A stretch of DNA of 44,062 bases from an uncultured Mediterraneibacter sp. (GTDB taxonomy: Bacteria; Bacillota; Clostridia; Lachnospirales; Lachnospiraceae), in NCBI GenBank assembly GCA_944376695.1, contig CALWDM010000017.1, positions 1-44,062 on the forward strand, given 5' to 3'. The number at the start of each line of letters is the position of its first letter. Position 1 is the first letter of the stretch. The notes under the pieces are model-generated. The model had not been told where the DNA came from, ran no database searches, and saw only the letters and a list, made by a program, of their open reading frames with translations. Of the stretch, positions 518-44,062 are shown one piece after another. A program made the translations under genes and the position numbers.

Positions 518-3271
518 TCACTTTATCATTGTGATTGATGATAGCTGCGCTAACAAATAAACATCTTTGTTTGAATTTTTAACTTCAAGGCGCTCAAGGA
601 CAGCTTTCTCAGTCTCTGGGCTCCAGTATATTTTCAACCTATTCTTTGCGCGGGTGATTGCTGTATAAAAAATGTTATGCGTGATACGTTCTTCTACTTC
701 GTTTGTGATAACGATTTTTACTGAGTTATATTCTAAACCTTGGGCTTTGTGGATAGACACGGCATACGCAACTTGAAATGGCACAACCGTGGAGTTGTTA
801 TCGTCATCATCTTCATCGGTACTTCGAAATTTATTAACGCTGAATGAGATAACGGAATTTCCTGCATCAGACTCTCCAATAAGTTCAAAGTCGTAGTCCC
901 ACGCATCTATCTCATTTATGGATTCCTCAAGCTCAATATCAAACCAAATTTGATGCTCTTCTGGATGAATCCCAACAATGCGCCCCTTTGTGTTGTTATG
1001 AATCAATGGGGAAAAGGTATTTAACTCATTAAACAGAACTGGATCACCAATCTTATATGTGTTGATTCCCCATACAATTCTCTCATTTGGATTACTGTTC
1101 TGCAAAAAGCGATTGATATTGTTAATTCCATAGAGTCCGTCATAATTCAAGCAGAGAATAATTTCGTCATCAGTACTATGTTCAAAAATAGACTCATCAA
1201 GTCTTGCAACATAACCGTTTTTCACTAATGGTTCTAAAATTGCATCATCGAGTCTACGTACGCGATCCCAAACGGTTAATAAATCTTGATTAGTGGTTCT
1301 GTACCGATAGGTTAATTCAAACACAGAAGTTGCAGGTACAAACTTTTGTGCGATGCTAAACCAATTGCCAAAGTAAATGGATTCTATCTGATATACATCA
1401 CCCACTAAGACCAACAGCTTAAAGTTGGCTTTTTCAAGCACCTGTCTCATATCATTGTTGCTTACGGTGCTACACTCATCGATAAACAGTATGTCGCACT
1501 CGGTATCGAGATTTCTATTTGATAAAAATTTTGCAATAGTATTATACCCACTGTTCCCAGCAGTTACTTTTCTTCTCATATTATCCACAGCGGGATAAGT
1601 ATTTGCCAAGAATATCTTATCCTTTTCTCCCCAAAAATTTGCTATATGGTTAATTAGGGTAGATTTACCTGTCCCTGCAGAACCGTATACTATTGCGACA
1701 TGTGAATTTTCAAACATGTGGCGCAGTGCTTCTTTTTTGTTTTCGTCATCAATACTGTATGACTCTCGAGAAAGCCATGAATCAACAGACGCAGTATATT
1801 GAGAAACACCAGACGAGGAAAGTTGTTGCAGCTTTTTGATGATTTCAGCGCTATCCTCAGCATATTCTTTGATATAAATATGCCCTTTATATTCTTCTAG
1901 CCTACGTCCAGTATGCTTATAGTAAAGGGCAGCGTTATATTTCCGAATCAACTCATCAATATCCTCAAACCCTTCTATTCCGGTTTTTGGAGTAAAAAGC
2001 TTTCCTTCTATCTCGGTATTGTTCTTAATATATCGAGCAAATAACTCATGCTCATGACCAGAGACGGGAATTGAGTTAAATAAGTCATATATCCTCGGAT
2101 TATGTTGGCGAAGAGAAGTACAATAAGGCATATGGTCAAAAGGCATACAGCCATAGTTTAGATAAAGGTTTGATAAACCGTCACACCGCTTATTCCAGTA
2201 CTGCCATTTGATAATACGATTGTTTATCTTATATAGCAAATAGCGTAACACATTTGAGCCAGCCTTATCACTCAAAATGATTTCTCGGCACTGATCCAGG
2301 AGTTTATATATTTTGATTGACTTAGCTTGCGAAGTGACATAACTTTTTATAAAATCATAATAATTCTGATCACTACTTACAAGCTCTGACAAGGGCATTT
2401 TAACAGTTGAGAGAAATCGCATCAGTTCCCTATATTCAATCGAGGTAGTGCTATGTTCCACTCGTGGTCCAAAGATTTCAGAGAGGTTATCCCATTCACA
2501 CGGACGAATAGATACTTCATAATCGTCTATTATTAAAATGGACATATCCTTGTCTAAAATGCGAATTGTATCATTATGAATAGAAAATTTTATAGCATAG
2601 TTATCCATAATTTCATGACGAGTAAAGGCAATTATTCGATCAAATTTACTTGTATTAGCTGTTGCTGCAGTAAATGTAATCTCATAATATATCTTTTGAT
2701 TTATAAAGAAAGGTTTGATTTTTTGAACATAATAGCGATCATTATACGTGACTGCATAGCTAAACCTGCTTGGCGACTCAATTCTCTCTGCAATTTTCGC
2801 GTAATAATCGGATAACTCGGTATCAGTATCTAGTGGAAAATCCTCAAGATTTTCTAGTACATCCAGATTGTGCGTCTGTTTAAGATAAAGTTTGATTTTA
2901 AGCAGATGCTCATAATATTTGAGTATAAGTCGCTCAGAGCCATCTTTGTCTATCGTGTAGTGTGACACAGACTTCTGGAGTAATTTGTGAAATCTATATA
3001 AAAAACGTAAATGCCCATGACGCTGCATATCTTTTAGGGCGGCAACATTGACATCGTAATCATTAGGATTAACATCCGCGCCATTAGAAAATACCTTAAT
3101 CGCCACATATTCCACAAAATTCCGAATATGCCCCAAAATATTTTGGCTCAGAAGTCCACGTTCGGTTGAACCGAATCGTGCAATGTTATCACAAATCACT
3201 TCACTTGTATCCAGAATAGCCTTATCAATTCTTAACAATATCACCATCTCCCTTTGTTTCGAAAATCTCAA
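518..3271 (-). CDS. large SF1 (RecD/UvrD-like) DNA helicase with uncharacterised N-terminus
   Basis: This encodes about 917 residues. The C-terminal ~390 residues are a superfamily 1 helicase. A Walker A GSAGTGKST lies near residue 530, Walker B LFIDECS about 65 residues later, a GDVYQIESI motif III-like segment follows, and a UvrD/RecD-type C-terminal motif SIHKAQGLEY near residue 840 is followed by FYTAITRAK. The first ~520 residues match no domain I recognise. The annotated start at 3271 is TTG. An in-frame ATG at 3247 and a GTG just after it lie beside a GGGAG sequence, so the start is uncertain by about 10 residues. The gene is much more AT-rich than the repair operon to its right and ends next to the truncated response regulator, which points to horizontal transfer. 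Lone helicases of this type often occur in defence islands, so an anti-phage role is possible but unproven. Confidence 0.8.
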   Translation of the reverse strand: MRFSKQREMVILLRIDKAILDTSEVICDNIARFGSTERGLLSQNILGHIRNFVEYVAIKVFSNGADVNPNDYDVNVAALKDMQRHGHLRFLYRFHKLLQKSVSHYTIDKDGSERLILKYYEHLLKIKLYLKQTHNLDVLENLEDFPLDTDTELSDYYAKIAERIESPSRFSYAVTYNDRYYVQKIKPFFINQKIYYEITFTAATANTSKFDRIIAFTRHEIMDNYAIKFSIHNDTIRILDKDMSILIIDDYEVSIRPCEWDNLSEIFGPRVEHSTTSIEYRELMRFLSTVKMPLSELVSSDQNYYDFIKSYVTSQAKSIKIYKLLDQCREIILSDKAGSNVLRYLLYKINNRIIKWQYWNKRCDGLSNLYLNYGCMPFDHMPYCTSLRQHNPRIYDLFNSIPVSGHEHELFARYIKNNTEIEGKLFTPKTGIEGFEDIDELIRKYNAALYYKHTGRRLEEYKGHIYIKEYAEDSAEIIKKLQQLSSSGVSQYTASVDSWLSRESYSIDDENKKEALRHMFENSHVAIVYGSAGTGKSTLINHIANFWGEKDKIFLANTYPAVDNMRRKVTAGNSGYNTIAKFLSNRNLDTECDILFIDECSTVSNNDMRQVLEKANFKLLVLVGDVYQIESIYFGNWFSIAQKFVPATSVFELTYRYRTTNQDLLTVWDRVRRLDDAILEPLVKNGYVARLDESIFEHSTDDEIILCLNYDGLYGINNINRFLQNSNPNERIVWGINTYKIGDPVLFNELNTFSPLIHNNTKGRIVGIHPEEHQIWFDIELEESINEIDAWDYDFELIGESDAGNSVISFSVNKFRSTDEDDDDNNSTVVPFQVAYAVSIHKAQGLEYNSVKIVITNEVEERITHNIFYTAITRAKNRLKIYWSPETEKAVLERLEVKNSNKDVYLLAQLSSITMIK

Positions 3272-3755: not shown

Positions 3756-4017
3756 ACTGATTCTTAGATGATTGTTGTATATCCGCTTCCTTCACCGTCC
3801 CGTCTTCATCATACGTCACAAGAAAAACCCTTTTCTCATCCAGCACCCACACTTCCTGTTCTGAACTGACCTTCTCATCAGGCCTATCCCACACTGTAAC
3901 AAGCTGAACTCTTTTATAACCTTCCAGTTCCTGCAGATCTTCCGCCTGCAGGGATTCCAGATGTATTGAACCCTGTTCCCATTTTGTAACAAAACTTCCC
4001 TTTAACTGATCTGCCAC
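3742..4017 (-). CDS. small hypothetical protein downstream of sbcC, 91 residues
   Basis: I do not recognise this protein. It starts with GTG at 4017 inside the 3' end of sbcC (16-base overlap, different frame), so it is probably translated by coupling to sbcC as the last gene of the recQ-sbcD-sbcC operon. The product is acidic, soluble and without membrane segments or cysteines. Its middle reads as beta-strand-like segments (VQLVTVWDRPDEKVSSEQE, RVFLVTYDEDGTVKEAD), resembling small alpha+beta domains of unknown function. The C-terminus is polar and probably disordered. Repair-related function is suggested only by position. Confidence 0.65.
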   Translation of the reverse strand: MADQLKGSFVTKWEQGSIHLESLQAEDLQELEGYKRVQLVTVWDRPDEKVSSEQEVWVLDEKRVFLVTYDEDGTVKEADIQQSSKNQYDTD

Positions 4018-7000
4018 CTCACATGGCTTCCCTCTTCGTCCTTTCTCACGATAAGCTGATCCTCGATCTCCTGCTTCAGCTCTGTCACATGGGAGATGAT
4101 CCCGATCAGCCTGGAGCCGCCCGCCATCTCCTGGAGCACCCGGACCGCCTTATCCCGGGAGTGCTCGTCCAGCGAGCCGAAGCCTTCGTCTATGAACATC
4201 ATGTCCAGATTGACCGACGCCGCGCTCTCCTGGATCTGATCCGCCATGCCGAGCGCCAGGCACAGAGCCGCCATAAAGGACTCCCCGCCGGAGAGGGTGC
4301 GCACTTCCCGCTCCTTCCCGGTCACCGTAGAGTAGACCATCAGGTCAAGCCCCCGGTTCTTTCCTTTTCCCGCCTTGTCAATGTCAAACATCCGCAGTTC
4401 AAACTGCCCTGCCGACATTTCGTCAAAACGGCGGTTCGCCGCATAGAGTATCCGCTCCAGATAACAGCGCTGCACATAAGTCTCGATGTCCATGCGGCTT
4501 CCGGTCACATTTCCGGAGAGCAGGTTGTACAGCTCGTCCAGCCTCCCGTGCTCTTCCATGATCTTCCCCCGCTCTTCCATGACCGGTTTCAGCGACTCAT
4601 ACACCGCGGCATCTGTTTTGTAATAGCTTCTGACTTCTTCCAGACGTGTCCGCGCGTCCTTCATCTCGTTCTCCGCCGCGTCCGCCGCCTGTTTCAAGTC
4701 CTCCGGCACAGGGCACTCCTGTCCTTCGGCCGCGGCTTTTGCGGCATCCCGTCTGCTCACGGTAGCTGTTTTCCGCTTCTGCCATGCATCCGCCTGTCCC
4801 TGCAATGTCTCCGCGTCACTTCGGGTATAGCTTTCCGTCAGTTCCTTCCACTCTGCCTCGGAAAGATCCTTTTCTTCCATGACCGCTTCGTAGCTGTCTT
4901 TTCTCTGGCCGCACTCTTTCTCCTGGACGGGAAGTTCTGACCGGTACCGGCTGATCAGCGCCTCCGCCTTCGTTCTGGCAGACTCCGCCCTCTGAGCTTT
5001 TTCTTCCGCGGCTCCCGAATCTGATTCTGCCTTCTTCCGTCTCTCTTCTGCACCGGCAAGCTCTGCCCGTGCCTCTGCCTCGCTCAGGTAATCCCGTGAG
5101 GATTCCAGATGCTTAAGCTCCGCCTGCTTTGCGGCAAATGCAGTCTTCGCGTCCACCGCTTTCCGGGATGCCTCCTCTGCCGCTGTTTTCTGAGCCGCCT
5201 TTTTCTCCCCGATCCCGAGCAGATATCCCCGGAGCTCTTTCAGAGTCTTCAGCTCTTCTTCCAGCTGGCCGCCTTCCCTGTCAAGAGACTTCTTCCATAC
5301 GCCCAGCAAATCTTCCGCCTGTCCCAGCGTCTTCGCTTCTCCGAACGCCTGGAGTTCCTCGTTTGCCGGAAGAGTTTCGCTTAGCTTTTGGCGCAGCCTG
5401 AGCAGCTCTTCCCAGAGGCTCTTCTCCTTTTCTTCCAGAAGGGCTGTCGCTGCCTGTGCGGCTGACGCCGCCTTCTCCTGCCTCTTTCTTAAACGCCCCA
5501 CTTCCCGCTCCCCCGTCTCCAGCGCTTCCCGGCTGAGATCCCTGTGTTCCTCTTTGATCTCACAGGGACGGGGATGATCCAGAGAGCCGCAGACAGGACA
5601 AGGTTCTCCCGGGCGGAGCTGTTCTCTGGCAATCATCCCTGCCTGTTCATTGAGGAAGATCCGCCTCGCTGTCTCATATTCCTGATTCTTCGTCTCATAG
5701 ATGCTGCTTGCCCCGGCAAAATCCTGTCTTGCCCGGTCCGCTGCATTCCTCTGCGCCTGCACCTCTCTGGCGGAACTTTTCGCCGCTTCGATATCCTTCC
5801 GCAGCTCTTCCGCCTTTGCACATTCCGCCTGCCAGCGTTCCTGCCGGATCTCTGCCTGAGCGAGGGATTCCGTCTGACTTCTCCACTGACGCTCGTTTTC
5901 CTCAAGAGTCTGCATCTTTTTCTGAGCGTCCTCCGCTTCCCGCTCTGCGCGGCGGAATGCTTCCCACGCAAGGGAAACCTCTTTTTCTGCCTGCCGGAGT
6001 CTGCTGAAAATATCCAGAGACTTCTGCACTCTCTCGGATACCTGCGTGAACTTCCGGATCTCCAGTGCAAGCTGTTCTTTCGCCCACTCTGTCTCTCCCT
6101 GCGCTGCCCGGCATGTCTCTGTAAGGGACGGAAGCGCCGCCTCCTGCTCTGCTAAGTGTTTCCCCGTATTCTCCAAAGTCCGGGCTGCATCCAGATACCG
6201 TTCATATACAGCGCGGATCTCATACGCCCTGCTGATCTTCCGTGCTTTTTCTTCTGCTGTCCGAATCCCGGCTTCTTCCGCCGCGCACCGGACGAGTTCC
6301 TGCTCCGCTTCTTCCAGCTCTTCGAACCGCTTTAAAAGCTGTATCCCTGCGATATGGGCGTCTCTCTTTTCCAGATAGTTTCGTTCCGCCCCATCGTATT
6401 CCTTCTGCGCCTGGCCGCAGCGTTCTTCTAACACGCCGCAGAGGCGTTCCAGTCCGTCCAGCAGCCGTTCCATATCCGCTGCGGAAAGCCGGTCCGAGGA
6501 AACGATACGCCTCTTCAATGCCTTAAGCTCTTCCGCCTGCTCATCGTCTTCCGGTACATCAATGTGCGACACCTCAGTCTGGCACACCGTGCGGATCTGT
6601 CCCATCTCCTGCTGTTTTTCCCTTCTCCGCTTTCCCAGCTCCTCCACGATCTTTGCGTACAGCTCTGTGTGGAAGAGCTTGCGGAAGATGAGCTTTTTGT
6701 CGTCGGATTTCGCCCGCAGAAGCTCCATGAACTCCCCCTGCGCGATCATGGCGACCTGCATGAACTGGCTCTTCGTCACCCCCACGATCTCTTCCAGCTT
6801 CCTGTCCGTCTCTTTCTGCGGGTACTCTGTCCCGTCCGGCATGGTGAGCGACACGCTCTCGCTCTCTTCCTTTACCCCGGTCCCGCGCTTCAGAGGCCGG
6901 ACATGCCTGGGCACCCGGCGGACCGTGTACTTTTCCCTGTACTTTTCCGCATATGCTTCCGCGTTTATTCCCAGGTCTTCTCCTCTGCCGCCTCCCGATC

Positions 7001-7259
7001 CCTCTGCGAATACCAGCTCCACGAACGGCTCTGTACCGGCGTCCACATACTGGCTCTGGAGCTCTGTCCCGTTCTTCTTGTTCATCCCGGAGCTTGCCTC
7101 TCCGTAGAGGGCGAATACAATGGCGTCAAATATGGTCGTCTTTCCCGCCCCCGTGTCCCCGGTGATCAGGAAAAGGTTCTGGTTCGTCTGTTCAAAATCA
7201 ATGACCGTCCGCTTCCCGTAGGAGCCGAACGCCTGCATAGTCAGTCTGAGCGGCCTCAT
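4002..7259 (-). CDS. sbcC: exonuclease SbcC, ATPase subunit of SbcCD
   Basis: SbcC is the Rad50-like subunit of the SbcCD complex, which opens hairpins and cleaves DNA ends in an ATP-dependent manner. The 1085 residues are a normal length. The N-terminal ABC half has Walker A GDTGAGKT at residues 34-41. Long charged coiled coils flank a zinc hook C-P-V-C near residue 553. The C-terminal half has the signature LSGGES near residue 986 and Walker B/D-loop MMFIDEGFGSLDEHS near 1020. The start overlaps the sbcD stop by 4 bases (ATGA), the usual coupling for subunits made in equal amounts. The high GC content of this gene creates several long but spurious frames on the plus strand. Confidence 0.97.
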   Translation of the reverse strand: MRPLRLTMQAFGSYGKRTVIDFEQTNQNLFLITGDTGAGKTTIFDAIVFALYGEASSGMNKKNGTELQSQYVDAGTEPFVELVFAEGSGGGRGEDLGINAEAYAEKYREKYTVRRVPRHVRPLKRGTGVKEESESVSLTMPDGTEYPQKETDRKLEEIVGVTKSQFMQVAMIAQGEFMELLRAKSDDKKLIFRKLFHTELYAKIVEELGKRRREKQQEMGQIRTVCQTEVSHIDVPEDDEQAEELKALKRRIVSSDRLSAADMERLLDGLERLCGVLEERCGQAQKEYDGAERNYLEKRDAHIAGIQLLKRFEELEEAEQELVRCAAEEAGIRTAEEKARKISRAYEIRAVYERYLDAARTLENTGKHLAEQEAALPSLTETCRAAQGETEWAKEQLALEIRKFTQVSERVQKSLDIFSRLRQAEKEVSLAWEAFRRAEREAEDAQKKMQTLEENERQWRSQTESLAQAEIRQERWQAECAKAEELRKDIEAAKSSAREVQAQRNAADRARQDFAGASSIYETKNQEYETARRIFLNEQAGMIAREQLRPGEPCPVCGSLDHPRPCEIKEEHRDLSREALETGEREVGRLRKRQEKAASAAQAATALLEEKEKSLWEELLRLRQKLSETLPANEELQAFGEAKTLGQAEDLLGVWKKSLDREGGQLEEELKTLKELRGYLLGIGEKKAAQKTAAEEASRKAVDAKTAFAAKQAELKHLESSRDYLSEAEARAELAGAEERRKKAESDSGAAEEKAQRAESARTKAEALISRYRSELPVQEKECGQRKDSYEAVMEEKDLSEAEWKELTESYTRSDAETLQGQADAWQKRKTATVSRRDAAKAAAEGQECPVPEDLKQAADAAENEMKDARTRLEEVRSYYKTDAAVYESLKPVMEERGKIMEEHGRLDELYNLLSGNVTGSRMDIETYVQRCYLERILYAANRRFDEMSAGQFELRMFDIDKAGKGKNRGLDLMVYSTVTGKEREVRTLSGGESFMAALCLALGMADQIQESAASVNLDMMFIDEGFGSLDEHSRDKAVRVLQEMAGGSRLIGIISHVTELKQEIEDQLIVRKDEEGSHVRWQIS

Positions 7260-41307: not shown

Positions 41308-41335
41308 ATTATAACAAATATCCCGGTGTTTGCAA
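41308..41335 (-). promoter_or_regulatory. asp23 promoter
   Basis: TTGCAA (41330-41335) and TATAAT (41308-41313) on the minus strand are 16 bases apart, about 30 bases before the asp23 start codon. The element to the right begins beyond this promoter, so asp23 expression is probably preserved. Confidence 0.75.
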
Positions 41336-41381
41336 AGAAAAAGTTCTGCTCTGCTCTCCGCAGAAAAATTTCAACCTTTTT

Positions 41382-41388
41382 TTCGACA
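41382..41388 (-). promoter_or_regulatory. candidate Spo0A box upstream of asp23
   Basis: On the minus strand TTTTGTCGAAAA contains the TGTCGAA core of a Spo0A box. It lies about 47 bases upstream of the asp23 -35 box. A single 7-base match in AT-rich DNA can arise by chance. Confidence 0.35.
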
Positions 41389-41499
41389 AAATTTCACTTT
41401 CAGCACTTTGTATAATTTCATTCTACTTATGTTGTTAATTTTGCATATATGCTTACATGCCTTTAGGGCTGGCGTGATCGTCAGCCCGCTTTATCTCCC

Positions 41500-42558
41500 T
41501 TATGCCAGTTTCCTTATCTCTTCCTCAAACAGTTCCCCAGCGCTTCTATATCCGTGTATCCGGCGCGGATATCCGTTTATCCAGTCCTCTACCTCTTGTA
41601 TCTCTTCCTCTGTCTTTCCGTCAAAGTTTGTTCCTTTCGGCACTTTCCGGCGTACCATCTTGTTTGTTACTTCGTTTGTTCCCCTCTCCCACGAGCTGTA
41701 CGGATGGCAATAGTATAGCTTTGTCCGTTTCTCTCCCTCATTGATCGCCGATCTCTCCAGCTCTTCGCACAGTGCAAACTCTGTGCCATTGTCTACCGTA
41801 ATGCTTTTAAAAACTTCTTTGAAAAGCTCTCCCCATTTTTTCTCTAATGTATCTAAAGCCGTTACCACCGCTGCTGCTGTGTGGTCTGGTAATTTGAATA
41901 TGATTTCAGCCCGTGTTTTCCTCTCTGTCAGAGTCAGCAGAGTATTTTTTGATTTTTTCTTTTGTCCTATCACGCTATCCATTTCCCAGTGCCCAAACTC
42001 TTCCCGGTTCTCTACCTCTTCCGGGCGCTTCTCTATGCTTTCCCCTGCCTCTGCCCTCTTCTGCTGTTTCCTTACCTTTTTGTATTGCCTCTTTTTGTTT
42101 GCCTTAACTGGCAAATCCTTATTTGATAATTTTAAGAATATCCCTTTGTCTATGTAACTGTAAAGCGTAGTTGTGCAAATCTTTGTGTCAAACTCTTCCC
42201 ACTTTCCCTGTGCTGTCAACTGCCCCAGCACTGCCGCCGGGCTGTAATCTTCATTTATAATTTTATCTTCTATATAATTCGCCAGCTTAATATCATTCCC
42301 TATTTTAAGCTGTGTTCCGCGCACTTTTAAATTTTCCTCATACTTCTGCTGTGCAAGGTCTGCGCTGTACCTCATTTCCGTTGTATAGTCGCTGTTCAGA
42401 TGCTCATACAGTCCGCGCTTGATCTCATTATATATAGTGCTCCTGTGCACTCCGATCATAGACGCAATTTCGGCTTTTGAGTGTCCAGCCTGTAAAAACG
42501 CCTCTATTCTTATTCTATCCCTCTTCTGTAACTGTCTGCTGCCCTTTTTGTTTGCCAT
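41500..42558 (-). CDS. IS30-family transposase
   Basis: The 352 residues have an N-terminal helix-turn-helix (about 27-48: SKAEIASMIGVHRSTIYNEI) and a C-terminal DDE domain. Catalytic residues are D194 in HWEMDSVIG, D256 in VDNGTEF and E291 in SSWERGTNEV, spaced as in IS30. Length is normal and the frame is intact, so it may be active. I found no clear short inverted repeats closely flanking the gene, as an ordinary IS30 copy would have. It is the last gene of a minus-strand run with two small genes upstream and points toward asp23. A terminator (42585-42615) lies between it and the HTH gene, so read-through or antitermination may limit its expression. Confidence 0.92.
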   Translation of the reverse strand: MANKKGSRQLQKRDRIRIEAFLQAGHSKAEIASMIGVHRSTIYNEIKRGLYEHLNSDYTTEMRYSADLAQQKYEENLKVRGTQLKIGNDIKLANYIEDKIINEDYSPAAVLGQLTAQGKWEEFDTKICTTTLYSYIDKGIFLKLSNKDLPVKANKKRQYKKVRKQQKRAEAGESIEKRPEEVENREEFGHWEMDSVIGQKKKSKNTLLTLTERKTRAEIIFKLPDHTAAAVVTALDTLEKKWGELFKEVFKSITVDNGTEFALCEELERSAINEGEKRTKLYYCHPYSSWERGTNEVTNKMVRRKVPKGTNFDGKTEEEIQEVEDWINGYPRRIHGYRSAGELFEEEIRKLA

Positions 42559-42584
42559 ACCTTGCCTCTTTCGTATCTATATTA

Positions 42585-42615
42585 AAAGCCGCAGGCTGTT
42601 AAACTCTGCGGCTTT
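42585..42615 (-). terminator. hairpin before the transposase gene
   Basis: AAAGCCGCAG (42585-42594) and CTGCGGCTTT (42606-42615) form a perfect 10-base stem with an 11-base loop, followed on the minus strand by TTTTAATAT. It lies between the small HTH gene and the transposase and could lower transposase transcription. Confidence 0.75.
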
Positions 42616-42626
42616 CATAAATTCTG

Positions 42627-42794
42627 TTATTGTCTGCCCTGCAATATTTTTTCTACTATCAGCTTTTCTATATACTTCGGGCAGCTTCGTTCTCCGTTCT
42701 CCCAGTTTTGCAGCGTTCTATAAGGTATCTCCAGCCAGTCCGATACCTCGCGCCTGCTCATGCCCTGCTTTTTGCGCGCCTCTTCTATCGTCAT
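42627..42794 (-). CDS. small helix-turn-helix protein, 55 residues
   Basis: A 55-codon gene from ATG 42794. The AAGGGG ribosome binding site lies 9 bases upstream. The product is almost only a helix-turn-helix: EEARKKQGMSRREVSDWLEI followed by PYRTLQNWENGERSCPKYIE, a Cro/C1-type fold with the recognition helix around RTLQNWENG. It resembles compact phage Cro/Ner-like or excisionase-like regulators. It lies between the 43-residue gene and the transposase. Its ribosome binding site may be controlled by RNA structure (see 42802-42884). Confidence 0.8.
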   Translation of the reverse strand: MTIEEARKKQGMSRREVSDWLEIPYRTLQNWENGERSCPKYIEKLIVEKILQGRQ

Positions 42795-42801
42795 ATCATC
42801 A

Positions 42802-42884
42802 CGCCCCTTGTCTTTTTATTTATTCCTGCTATAATCTAATTAAGCACTTGGGGCGGTCAGCAGGAATGTTTAGGTATCCGCCCC
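42802..42884 (-). promoter_or_regulatory. candidate RNA switch over HTH gene ribosome binding site
   Basis: In the minus-strand RNA, GGGGCGG (from 42884) can pair with CCGCCCC (from 42856). The same CGCCCC can instead pair with GGGGCG (42807-42802), which contains the ribosome binding site of the HTH gene. A further 9-base pair ATTCCTGCT/AGCAGGAAT (42859-42867 with 42822-42830) overlaps the first choice. The two folds are mutually exclusive, as in translational switches. Inferred only from pairing. Confidence 0.45.
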
Positions 42885-42902
42885 TCGTGTGTACCCTTTA
42901 TT

Positions 42903-43034
42903 CTATTTTCTTATTTCTTCAAGTATCTTATCTATGTGCTCTACGGTATGTATTTCCCCGTTTGTTCTCGCAACTTCTCTGATTGATACCAGCATTGCGA
43001 TAAGATCAGCTTTGCTCATTTCTTCATTCTCCAT
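42903..43034 (-). CDS. 43-residue acidic helical protein of unknown function
   Basis: ATG 43034 is chosen because AAAGGAG lies 6 bases upstream; a longer frame (to 43085) lacks such a site and would run through the promoter. The product (MENEEMSKADLIAMLVSIRE..., ending in HIDKILEEIRK) is acidic and predicted helical. I recognise no family. As the first gene behind the operator-controlled promoter at 43073-43123 it occupies the position of an early regulator in a transposable-phage-like operon. Confidence 0.7.
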   Translation of the reverse strand: MENEEMSKADLIAMLVSIREVARTNGEIHTVEHIDKILEEIRK

Positions 43035-43072
43035 GTTTAACTCCTTTCCTGCCGTTCCCTTGTTACAATTAT

Positions 43073-43123
43073 AGTATATACCCATTGAGCTTATTTGTCA
43101 ATACTTTTTATACTCAATGAGCT
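43073..43123 (-). promoter_or_regulatory. operon promoter with paired operator-like repeats
   Basis: On the minus strand TTGACA (43096-43101) and TATACT (43073-43078) are 17 bases apart. AGCTCATTGAGTATA (43109-43123) and AGCTCAATGGGTATA (43077-43091) match at 13 of 15 positions. They are 32 bases apart, about three helical turns, on one DNA face and on either side of the -35 box. This layout suggests binding of a dimeric repressor, most simply the XRE protein encoded next door, blocking transcription of the 43-residue, HTH and transposase genes. Confidence 0.75.
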
Positions 43124-43152
43124 ATTTTTTTACAATATAAAACGCCGCAACT

Positions 43153-43410
43153 TCATTGTTGCAGCGCTTCATCTTCTGCGGTCAGCCATTCCATACTTAC
43201 ACCCAGCACTTTTGCAAATATTTTCAGCTCATAATCTGTTACAAATCTTGTTCCTATCTCTATCCGGCTTATGCTGTCACGTTCCAGTGTTATCCCCTGT
43301 GTCTGCACTCTTGCCGCAAGGTCTGTTTGCGTTATGCGCTTCTCGGCTCTCGCCATCTTAATGCGCCTCCCGCAGAGGTTTTTCTTGACTTTGTAGCTGT
43401 AAATTTTCAT
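43153..43410 (-). CDS. XRE-family repressor
   Basis: The 85 residues carry a Cro/C1-type helix-turn-helix (ARAEKRITQTDLAARVQTQG and RDSISRIEIGTRFVTDYELK), ending at V-S-M-E-W-L, with a very short tail. This is the size of a small phage or ICE repressor without a cleavage domain. It starts at ATG 43410, about 10-15 bases after GGGGAACAGG. It lies immediately upstream of the operator-flanked promoter and diverges from the PH-like gene. The inferred role is repression of the transposase operon. Confidence 0.85.
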   Translation of the reverse strand: MKIYSYKVKKNLCGRRIKMARAEKRITQTDLAARVQTQGITLERDSISRIEIGTRFVTDYELKIFAKVLGVSMEWLTAEDEALQQ

Positions 43411-43458
43411 CTTTTACCTGTTCCCCTGTCCACCACATGTTAATAATCAGAATTTTTC

Positions 43459-43497
43459 TTGACTTTAACACATATGCCACCTAAAATTGTGTTAAAG
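43459..43497 (+). promoter_or_regulatory. PH-gene promoter inside a perfect inverted repeat
   Basis: TTGACT (43459-43464) and TAAAAT (43482-43487) are 17 bases apart. CTTTAACAC (43463-43471) and GTGTTAAAG (43489-43497) form a perfect 9-base inverted repeat spaced 17 bases, spanning from the -35 edge to just past the -10. Its sequence differs from the operators at 43077-43123, so a different regulator, or a second binding mode, is likely. Confidence 0.7.
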
Positions 43498-43535
43498 GTC
43501 AGAACCGAAAAATTTAAGGAAGAGAGGTTTATTTT

Positions 43536-43943
43536 ATGGGATTGTTTAGAAAAAAAGAAAAGCCACAAAAGCAATCTGTGCCGGATGCAATGGCAAATAA
43601 TGTTTTCCGAAAATCATTGCTTGATGGTGAGAGTATCGAAATAAGCATAGATGGTAAATGTGAGGCTGAAAAACTTGTGTTCTCTGTCGCTGTCCTTGCT
43701 CTTACAAATAAGCGTTGTTTTTACTATAAGCAGGACGGCAGCCAAGCCGCTATAGAAAGTATTCTTTTTGATAAGATCACATCTGTTGAGCAGATTTCCG
43801 GCTTTGAAAAAAAGATGGGGAATTACATAGGAATAAAATTGCAGACAATAGACGGAAAAGCGCGGGTTATCCGTTGTCTCAACAATTCCGAAAATCAAAA
43901 CAAAATCAATACTATTATTTTTGAGCTTCAAAGCAGATCATAA
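43536..43943 (+). CDS. small PH-like domain protein
   Basis: The 135 residues start at ATG 43536 after AGAGG. After a basic N-terminus (MGLFRKKEKPQKQS) the rest looks like a bacterial pleckstrin-homology-like beta domain: LALTNKRCFYYKQDG matches the common L-T-N-x-R-x-x-x-Y pattern, followed by strands (ITSVEQISGF, YIGIKLQTIDGKARVIRC) and a final helix. Such proteins are found in phages, ICEs and chromosomes; their function is mostly unknown. It has a regulated promoter (43459-43497) and a strong terminator (43949-43985), and is the only plus-strand gene here. Confidence 0.7.
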   Translation: MGLFRKKEKPQKQSVPDAMANNVFRKSLLDGESIEISIDGKCEAEKLVFSVAVLALTNKRCFYYKQDGSQAAIESILFDKITSVEQISGFEKKMGNYIGIKLQTIDGKARVIRCLNNSENQNKINTIIFELQSRS

Positions 43944-43948
43944 TTTAA

Positions 43949-43985
43949 GAGCGGGAATGGTTGTTGTGCCATCCCGCTCTTTTTT
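43949..43985 (+). terminator. terminator of the PH-like gene
   Basis: AGAGCGGGA (43949-43957) pairs with TCCCGCTCT (43972-43980), with an inner ATGG/CCAT-like extension, followed by TTTTT (43981-43985), starting 6 bases after the stop codon. Confidence 0.9.
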
Positions 43986-43994
43986 CGAGAGTGT

Positions 43995-44043
43995 AAAATA
44001 AAGTGTGTAAGTTACCGGTAACAAAACTTACGCACTTTATTTT
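43995..44043. repeat. long hairpin with inner palindrome at the window end
   Basis: The arms 43995-44013 and 44025-44043 pair over 19 bases with a single G-T wobble and an 11-base loop. A perfect 12-base palindrome GTTACCGGTAAC (44011-44022) overlaps the inner end. A-rich and T-rich outer edges mean it could terminate transcripts from both sides. It may also be a protein-binding or element-end structure. Confidence 0.75.
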
Positions 44044-44062
44044 TATGCAAAAATGCGATACA

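Follow-up and report, generated by a model that had tools for sequence, protein, structure and literature searches.

A probable prophage right end with an IS30-type transposase, inserted beside a host promoter, in an uncultured Mediterraneibacter sp.

Phages with an IS30-type integrase, promoter targeting by other transposases and promoters formed at junctions of insertion sequences (IS) are already known. For the Faecalibacterium phage Lagaffe (FP_Lagaffe, Lagaffevirus, NC_047911) the accessible part of the 2018 description reports an IS30 transposase as integrase, virions, a cos site and unexpected direct repeats at the ends, and gives neither promoter targeting nor a repeat length (PMC5883640). 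IS30 itself, according to PMC9333248, generates target repeats of 2 bp, uses hot spots or its own ends and not promoters as targets, and forms a circle in which the abutted ends are separated by 2 bp. TnGBS, ISLre2 and ISKra4 of the Mutator superfamily are described as inserting 15-17 bp upstream of sigmaA promoters, in an oriented manner for most elements (PMC3942029). In the present study, contig CALWDM010000017.1 (C17) of an uncultured Mediterraneibacter sp. (assembly GCA_944376695.1, here G000; 2.67 Mb, 94% complete) was analysed over its full length of 44,062 nt, hereafter called the window, and near its end a module of a repressor gene, two small genes and an IS30-type transposase gene was compared with its relatives. 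As judged from this comparison, the module most likely marks the right end of a prophage of a temperate tailed phage of the Lagaffe kind. The joint explanation, comprising a prophage right end, insertion at a promoter flank and an early promoter with a hairpin that would be built in the circle, is given a probability of roughly three in four.

Circle junctions of IS911 assemble a promoter that drives the transposase gene, and in Tn916 circle-dependent transcription drives the transfer genes; in contrast, the junction promoter considered here would drive an early phage operon. An IS30-like enzyme also mobilises ICE6013 of Staphylococcus, likewise a large element, which is conjugative and makes 3-bp repeats. 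The IS30-type enzyme in a phage-like gene order, which the sequence-only reading of this DNA had pointed out, was already described for Lagaffe. In search results from open-access PubMed Central, and in passages of PMC11792537 and PMC12629997, neither a split early promoter nor, for phages of the IS30 type, targeting of promoters or repeats of 15 bp was seen described.

Relatives were collected by a transposase search, from which the best 80 of 85 genome loci and 47 viral contigs were used; loci (L) and genomes or phage records (G) are numbered where they have to be told apart. In these relatives the element has a sharp end, which in most cases lies about 45-230 nt beyond the transposase gene. 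The window shares this sharp end, 125 nt after its transposase gene, and the tip of the element is placed at about 41363 instead of 41430, where the module had been thought to begin. For the detection of repeats the host side of the right end was searched against far-upstream sequence, and the left end was defined by the copy abutting the left-end motif. Direct repeats were located at the tips of 14 of 18 elements and then of 7 of 9 more (21/27), with lengths of 14 bp (one element), 15 bp (nine), 16 bp (five), 17 bp (four), 20 bp (one) and 25 bp (one), compared with 2-3 bp for the IS30 family. This spread fits a length of 15 bp with chance extension. For the predicted structure of the transposase (predicted local distance difference test, pLDDT, 78.6; predicted template modelling score, pTM, 0.49), the matches are cores of retroviral-integrase-like type and the IS21 protein IstA (best match 8q4d, E 8e-8, TM 0.33), and the model offers no explanation of the 15-bp repeat; at the sequence level, the helix-turn-helix (HTH) stretch alone was matched among solved structures.

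The span between the repeats amounts to 35-51 kb in eight prophages and to 2.1-10.7 kb in four small elements. One of the latter, L035:9086-11182, is a 2.1-kb insertion-sequence form of the lineage with a like transposase, 15-bp repeats and no phage genes; its small extra gene, seen by eye, is presumably of ribbon-helix-helix type. The other three (L030:485-11187, L042:4979-11103 and L056:5353-11085, with 10.7, 6.1 and 5.7 kb between the repeats) have both phage ends and may be satellites or decayed prophages. In group A, the two ends share only a short sub-terminal core, TTCGACAA, which is also present at the right tip of the window and lies 19 nt from the tip in group A left ends. A long terminal inverted repeat was tried and rejected: in a search of 14 genomes with a 19-bp right-end word and up to 2 mismatches, exact copies occurred only at known right ends (one each in G001, G002 and G003), and, among the coordinates that were compared, none of the 2-mismatch matches lay close to a left end that had been mapped.

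Promoters were scored by matches to the 12 letters of TTGACA and TATAAT at a spacing of 16-18, with a threshold of at least 8. At 24-27 nt beyond the right tip this threshold was reached in 48 of 80 distinct flanks versus 98 of 3063 control windows further downstream, and only 3-6 of the 80 flanks reached it when the slot was shifted by 4, 8 or 12 nt. Collapsing homologous flanks left 76 clusters, 44 of them with a promoter, so that homology between flanks hardly matters. Among the 46 best promoters, 26 begin at exactly 26 nt and 38 at 24-27 nt. In the window this place is occupied by the asp23-nusB promoter of the host. The asp23-nusB locus is present in all 58 genomes of the genus that were searched, the own one included, and the eight same-genus loci that were printed keep the promoter without insertion, behind the end of another gene, which we take to encode a release-factor-3-like protein.

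In a maximum-likelihood tree of 103 transposases (proteins of more than 300 amino acids (aa) only) the loci with a right-end promoter cluster. A clade of 50 that includes the window (support 100/96) contains 41 loci with and 2 without such a promoter and 7 unlabelled ones; by flank clusters, a promoter is present in 39 of 41. Five further promoter loci (L055, L059, L085, L130 and L140) are located outside this clade. Elements of the class without a right-end promoter looked like exceptions before their left ends were mapped: all 11 with a mapped left end have a promoter beyond that tip, at the distance seen elsewhere, and none of the 10 tested has one beyond the right tip. Left-facing scores are modest in some of them (8 in L042; 9 in G010, G012 and G014), and in two a shifted slot equals or beats the score (10 in G010, 9 in L042). 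All ten right-facing elements reach at least 8 at the right, partly by definition, and G001 reaches 8 at the left too. With both ends mapped, 21 of 21 elements have promoter-like sequence at one tip, and the end that faces the promoter appears to be mostly a lineage trait. In the Lagaffe branch (L038, L042 and L064) a left end was mapped only for L042, with the promoter at the left tip. The fixed distance upstream of promoters resembles that of TnGBS-type elements, which differ from the present ones by an unrelated Mutator-type transposase, by a distance of 15-17 bp from the -35 box versus 26, and by being conjugative elements or insertion sequences and not phages.

Of 40 loci of the promoter class, 6 have tRNA genes at a distance of at most 400 nt, compared with 2 of 1127 control windows, and the other genes behind target promoters presumably include those for ribosomal proteins, NusG, trigger factor and TypA (recognised by eye from open reading frame starts); the genes behind target promoters are often strongly expressed. 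Positions -61 to -47 from the transcript start are the UP-element region, and this is about the interval that the 15-bp repeat would span, with the host core promoter left whole. At the right end, 10 of 32 promoter-less loci have a strong terminator; the figure is 2 of 48 for loci with a promoter there and 44 of 1496 for control windows. Terminators as a second type of target were dropped once promoters turned up at left tips, and those at promoter-less right ends may represent the end of the gene behind.

The A/T-richness of many repeats, together with the consideration that insertion before promoters is least harmful to the host and that selection could filter the sites accordingly, would also fit a target defined by a property of the DNA before promoters (A/T-rich, bent or nucleoid-free) without involvement of RNA polymerase. 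This explanation is possible and stays short of even odds: it has difficulty with the sharp distance seen in the 46 best promoters, with the loss of the signal upon a shift of the slot by 4 nt, and with repeats that are not A/T-rich, such as GGATTGCGCCGGCGC in L035.

Twenty-one loci, phage records among them, carry the right end joined to the left end, that is, the closed junction or phage attachment site (attP). From the -35 hexamer of the right end to a -10-like hexamer of the left end the distance is 17 bp in 20 of 21 junctions, and the latter hexamer matches TATAAT in 4-6 letters (mean 4.8), compared with a mean of 2.8 where host DNA takes the place of the left end (80 loci, p = 2e-10). 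Conversely, 12 integrated left ends have a random-looking host hexamer at the place of the -35 box, with a mean of 2.2 matches versus 2.6 for random sequence and 5.3 for attP. The -10 match at the junction and the lack of a -35 box at integrated left ends suggest that the full early promoter is present only in the circle. Lagaffe likewise has the junction promoter and the hairpin described below. Two phages, L128 and L131 (96% identical), share their junction sequence from 20 nt before the -35 hexamer to the 5′ arm of the hairpin, with the exception of two bases between the tips; this difference fits a 2-bp spacer derived from the previous insertion site, and the 2-bp gap of IS30 circles fits the junctions here as well. 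In the second, tandem junction of G012 the spacer AA equals the two host bases adjoining its left tip. At L200:3321-3600 of the same genome, a junction of the circle type and the 3′ end of another transposase copy come after a left end, at a distance of no more than about 150 bp, an arrangement that is a tandem or nested insertion. Left out of the counts of junction hexamers and promoter distances were rows without a convincing end (L071, L073, L078, L080, L082, L083, L084 and L086), the truncated loci L101 and L127, the near-duplicates L108 and L139, L032, L021, any locus with less than 75 nt of flank, and flanks that exactly repeat another; in L068 the tip was moved by 2 nt by hand.

After the -10 hexamer a stem-loop is present in 34 of 34 left ends (every z below -2, mean -17.1 kcal/mol), and a T-run follows it directly in 29 of them. 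A transcript starting at the junction about 7 nt after the -10 hexamer would be without part of the 5′ arm of the hairpin, and removal of the first 6 nt of the hairpin, corresponding to such a start, brings the mean to -8.5. The outer 8-bp stem was aligned for 28 hairpins picked from the 34 (L124, L131, L091, L195, L056 and L199 were omitted), and compensatory changes were observed in 8 of 8 pairs, with 94.5% of cells paired. These measures were reached by none of 500 shuffles, and slid stems fall to 28-45%; further pair types in the stem were not above the shuffles (204 of 500). The next gene encodes a lone HTH_38 domain resembling the N-terminus of the transposase. It is found within 900 bp behind 13 of the 14 left ends identified by their repeats, a count that includes seven left ends picked independently of this gene, the exception being the 2.1-kb element L035.

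In group A the outer arm of the hairpin holds the TTCGACAA core of the right end, and the hairpin might then be a palindromic double binding site for the transposase or the small HTH_38 protein and no terminator. This is rather unlikely in view of the T-run that directly follows the 3′ arm in most left ends; the paired substitutions in the stem fit RNA pairing, though a DNA palindrome would covary too.

The assignment to a phage is based on the surroundings of the module in its relatives. L100, the closest relative among the matches listed, contains the whole module together with the divergent gene for a bacterial PH domain (bPH) protein in the same order, with identities of 97% for the transposase, 99% for the XRE protein, 100% for the 43-aa protein, 98% for the 55-aa HTH protein and 93% for the bPH protein. 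There the module closes the 36.6-kb phage record G015, whose genes include those for terminase, portal, major head protein, tape measure and endolysin/amidase; a 63-aa HTH_38 protein is encoded close to the opposite end of the record. The same record (L147/L148) has a reverse transcriptase gene (RVT_1) near the tail genes, perhaps part of a diversity-generating retroelement, as well as ParA-type and HNH genes. Of the genome loci with at least 3 kb upstream, 41 of 59 have late phage genes before the transposase gene, and of the viral loci with such an upstream part 34 of 39 do; L096-L100 were excluded from this count, being the query source or sharing a record with it.

The order from repressor to transposase, for which a search of genomes had been proposed earlier, recurs in phage genomes; it is seen in Lagaffe, L008, L026 and L100. 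Lagaffe, likewise with an IS30-family transposase as integrase, has the order endolysin, holin, a minus-strand open reading frame, an HTH gene, a 41-aa gene, a regulator, the transposase, an HTH gene and the early genes; it differs from the window by a transposase that is 56.5% identical and belongs to another clade, and by contractile tail genes. The proposal of the sequence-only reading that the module is the left end of a transposing prophage was borne out as to a prophage end with an IS30-type transposase behind a repressor, and has to be turned around as to the side, which is the right one. Its comparison with the order of Mu-like phages proved superficial, as the transposase lies beyond the lysis genes beside the attachment site.

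Without any structural phage gene in the window, the module could in principle be no phage end but a regulated transposon of IS30 type, small in size and equipped with a repressor gene and a cargo gene, comparable to L035 with its like transposase, 15-bp repeats and small extra genes only. This is improbable: the near-identical module, bPH gene included, ends a phage record in which virion and lysis genes are visible, whereas the window has none before the contig end, and in L008 and L026 the same four genes stand beside genes that we take, by eye, to be tail, holin and endolysin genes. A Mu-like phage replicating by transposition, to which the gene order of repressor, small regulators and transposase and a Mu Gam-like gene annotated in Lagaffe would point, is very improbable in view of the closed right-end/left-end junctions in phage records and of the cos packaging of Lagaffe given in PMC5883640, which differs from the packaging of integrated copies with host DNA at the ends in Mu-like phages, the transposase moreover being of IS30 and not of Mu A type and the early genes lying across attP.

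Several observations weigh against the reading of the window as the right end of a promoter-targeting prophage with an early promoter completed in the circle. The phage assignment of the window rests on L100, and L035 demonstrates that this type of transposase also moves elements without phage genes. No left end, second repeat or phage body of the window copy was found in its own assembly, and this copy may therefore be a remnant. The last base of its tip is C, where the nearest relatives have A. Promoter calls are consensus matches, and L054 and L062 belong to the clade of the window without having a right-end promoter. Six of the 27 elements (G005, G013, L076, L022, G080 and G079a) gave no repeats. 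At the junctions, L099 has a spacing of 18 bp, and the right-end hexamer is a poor TTGCAT in 3 of 21 (L113, L118 and L143). Finally, 5 of 34 hairpins have no direct T-run (L033, L117, L124, L068 and G011).

The features of the module and its surroundings are compiled in Table 1. All four genes named by the sequence-only reading were confirmed on the minus strand, the transposase gene being intact and open throughout. The transposase exceeds the cut-off of the NCBIfam IS30 model NF033563 (9.1e-73, 245 bits, cut-off 80) and matches phrog_4646, 'integration and excision, transposase', with 2.6e-138; residues D194, D256 and E296 are kept in 103 of 103 aligned relatives and E291 in 101 of 103. The proposed promoter before the 43-aa gene is likewise present, with two CTCAWTGRG operator-like repeats, and this layout is common to four other loci that were printed (L100, L008, L026 and L108). 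Homologues of the 55-aa protein occur in matching position in the same four loci. Close homologues of the 43-aa protein, which would comprise 60 aa if an upstream ATG were used as start, were found only there, always beside the transposase, in a search confined to transposase loci; the identity is 100% in L100 and 98% in both L026 and L108, and in L008 the match falls into two pieces, one of 93% and one of 83%. Of 66 genome loci, 20 encode an XRE homologue on the same strand within 3 kb upstream of the transposase, and of 50 viral or phage loci 24 do; the regulators accordingly vary. In comparison with a simple IS30 layout, the window has a repressor gene, two small genes and a cargo gene beyond the transposase, the bPH gene being a probable lysogeny cargo gene.

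Table 1. Positions of the module, its promoter and its surroundings in the window
Feature	Position	Strand	Basis and details
Host asp23-nusB promoter	41308..41336	-	-35 TTTGCA 26 nt beyond tip, -10 TATAAT, 17-bp spacing, 10/12 consensus letters
Predicted 15-bp target duplication, sole copy in assembly	41348..41362	.	inferred from repeats of relatives
Right tip of element	41363..41389	-	outward -35 TTGAAA 41374-41369; sub-terminal core TTCGACAA 41382-41389 (+ strand)
IS30-family DDE transposase as phage integrase, 352 aa	41500..42558	-	NCBIfam NF033563, PHROG phrog_4646
55-aa HTH_3 protein (HTH55)	42627..42794	-	Pfam HTH_3 1.6e-7, above cut-off
43-aa protein (P43), first gene of operon, no named family	42903..43034	-	no Pfam match
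Operon promoter	43073..43125	-	-35 TTGACA 43101-43096, -10 TATACT 43078-43073, 17-bp spacing
XRE-type repressor, 85 aa	43153..43410	-	HTH_3 3.3e-7 (above cut-off); phrog_3 transcriptional repressor 1.6e-9
Divergent gene, bacterial PH domain	43536..43943	+	Pfam bPH_3 at its cut-off; 93% protein, same place, in L100
Tip of IS256-type element, contig breaks there	43987..44062	+	76 bp 100% identical to C3:362-437

To the left of the element the window is ordinary chromosome, with an Asp23 protein identified by Pfam search and, beyond its gene, what by eye we take to be nusB-like and xseA-like genes. Position 44062 is the end of the contig, which makes reading further to the right impossible. The copy of the 76-bp tip is located near the end of contig C3 and is followed there by the start of what is presumably, as recognised by eye, an IS256-type transposase gene; repeated IS256-type copies probably broke the assembly at this point. 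In the own genome, neither 8.5 kb of the nearest relative nor the other host flank gave a match, the latter beyond the promoter itself. Terminase matches are contained in phage-like stretches of contigs C6 (first 20 kb) and C32; these were considered as the rest of this phage and are only remotely alike, so that they could not be assigned to it. At some distance from the module, the window encodes a 917-aa protein (518-3271, minus strand) with a full-length match of 1320 bits to the PADLOC candidate defence family PDC-S53. Its gene sits in a stretch of low GC content, about 37%, and the adjoining gene at 4002-7259 is presumably SbcC-like (by eye).

The enzyme family, the ends, the repeats, the target position, the junction architecture and the conservation of the hairpin can be read from the sequences, and the following course of events is proposed on top of them. 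In the integrated state the XRE protein would shut off the transposase operon; upon its loss, the transposase would join the two ends into a circle. Circularisation would assemble the early promoter, and the transcript of the early operon would begin inside the 5′ arm of the hairpin and in this way escape termination. The circle would then insert on the upstream side of a promoter, where it probably makes contact with RNA polymerase bound to that promoter or with the DNA of the UP element, the contact with polymerase being the least supported of these proposals. Insertion would split the early promoter again and leave the whole hairpin to stop read-through from the host; the core of the host promoter would stay whole, while integration would help to keep the lytic genes silent. 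The lone HTH_38 protein may compete for the ends. As a general statement, a phage-borne lineage of IS30-type transposases whose insertions are staggered by 15 bp and fall on the UP-element flank of promoters occupied by polymerase is put forward tentatively, at slightly less than even odds, in combination with a lysis-lysogeny switch in which circularisation would build the early promoter and integration would take it apart, a hairpin across the start site letting none but the junction transcript pass.

For a group of gut phages these comparisons yield a simple rule of insertion, about 26 nt before the -35 box, with the facing end mostly a lineage trait and with a target repeat that is unusually long for the IS30 transposase family. 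If the proposed switch is true, the act of integration could by itself turn the early genes off. Next to the Mutator enzymes of TnGBS, to which they are not related, the transposases of this lineage would form a second promoter-targeting DDE family, and a second such family suggests that promoter flanks are a general safe harbour for mobile DNA.

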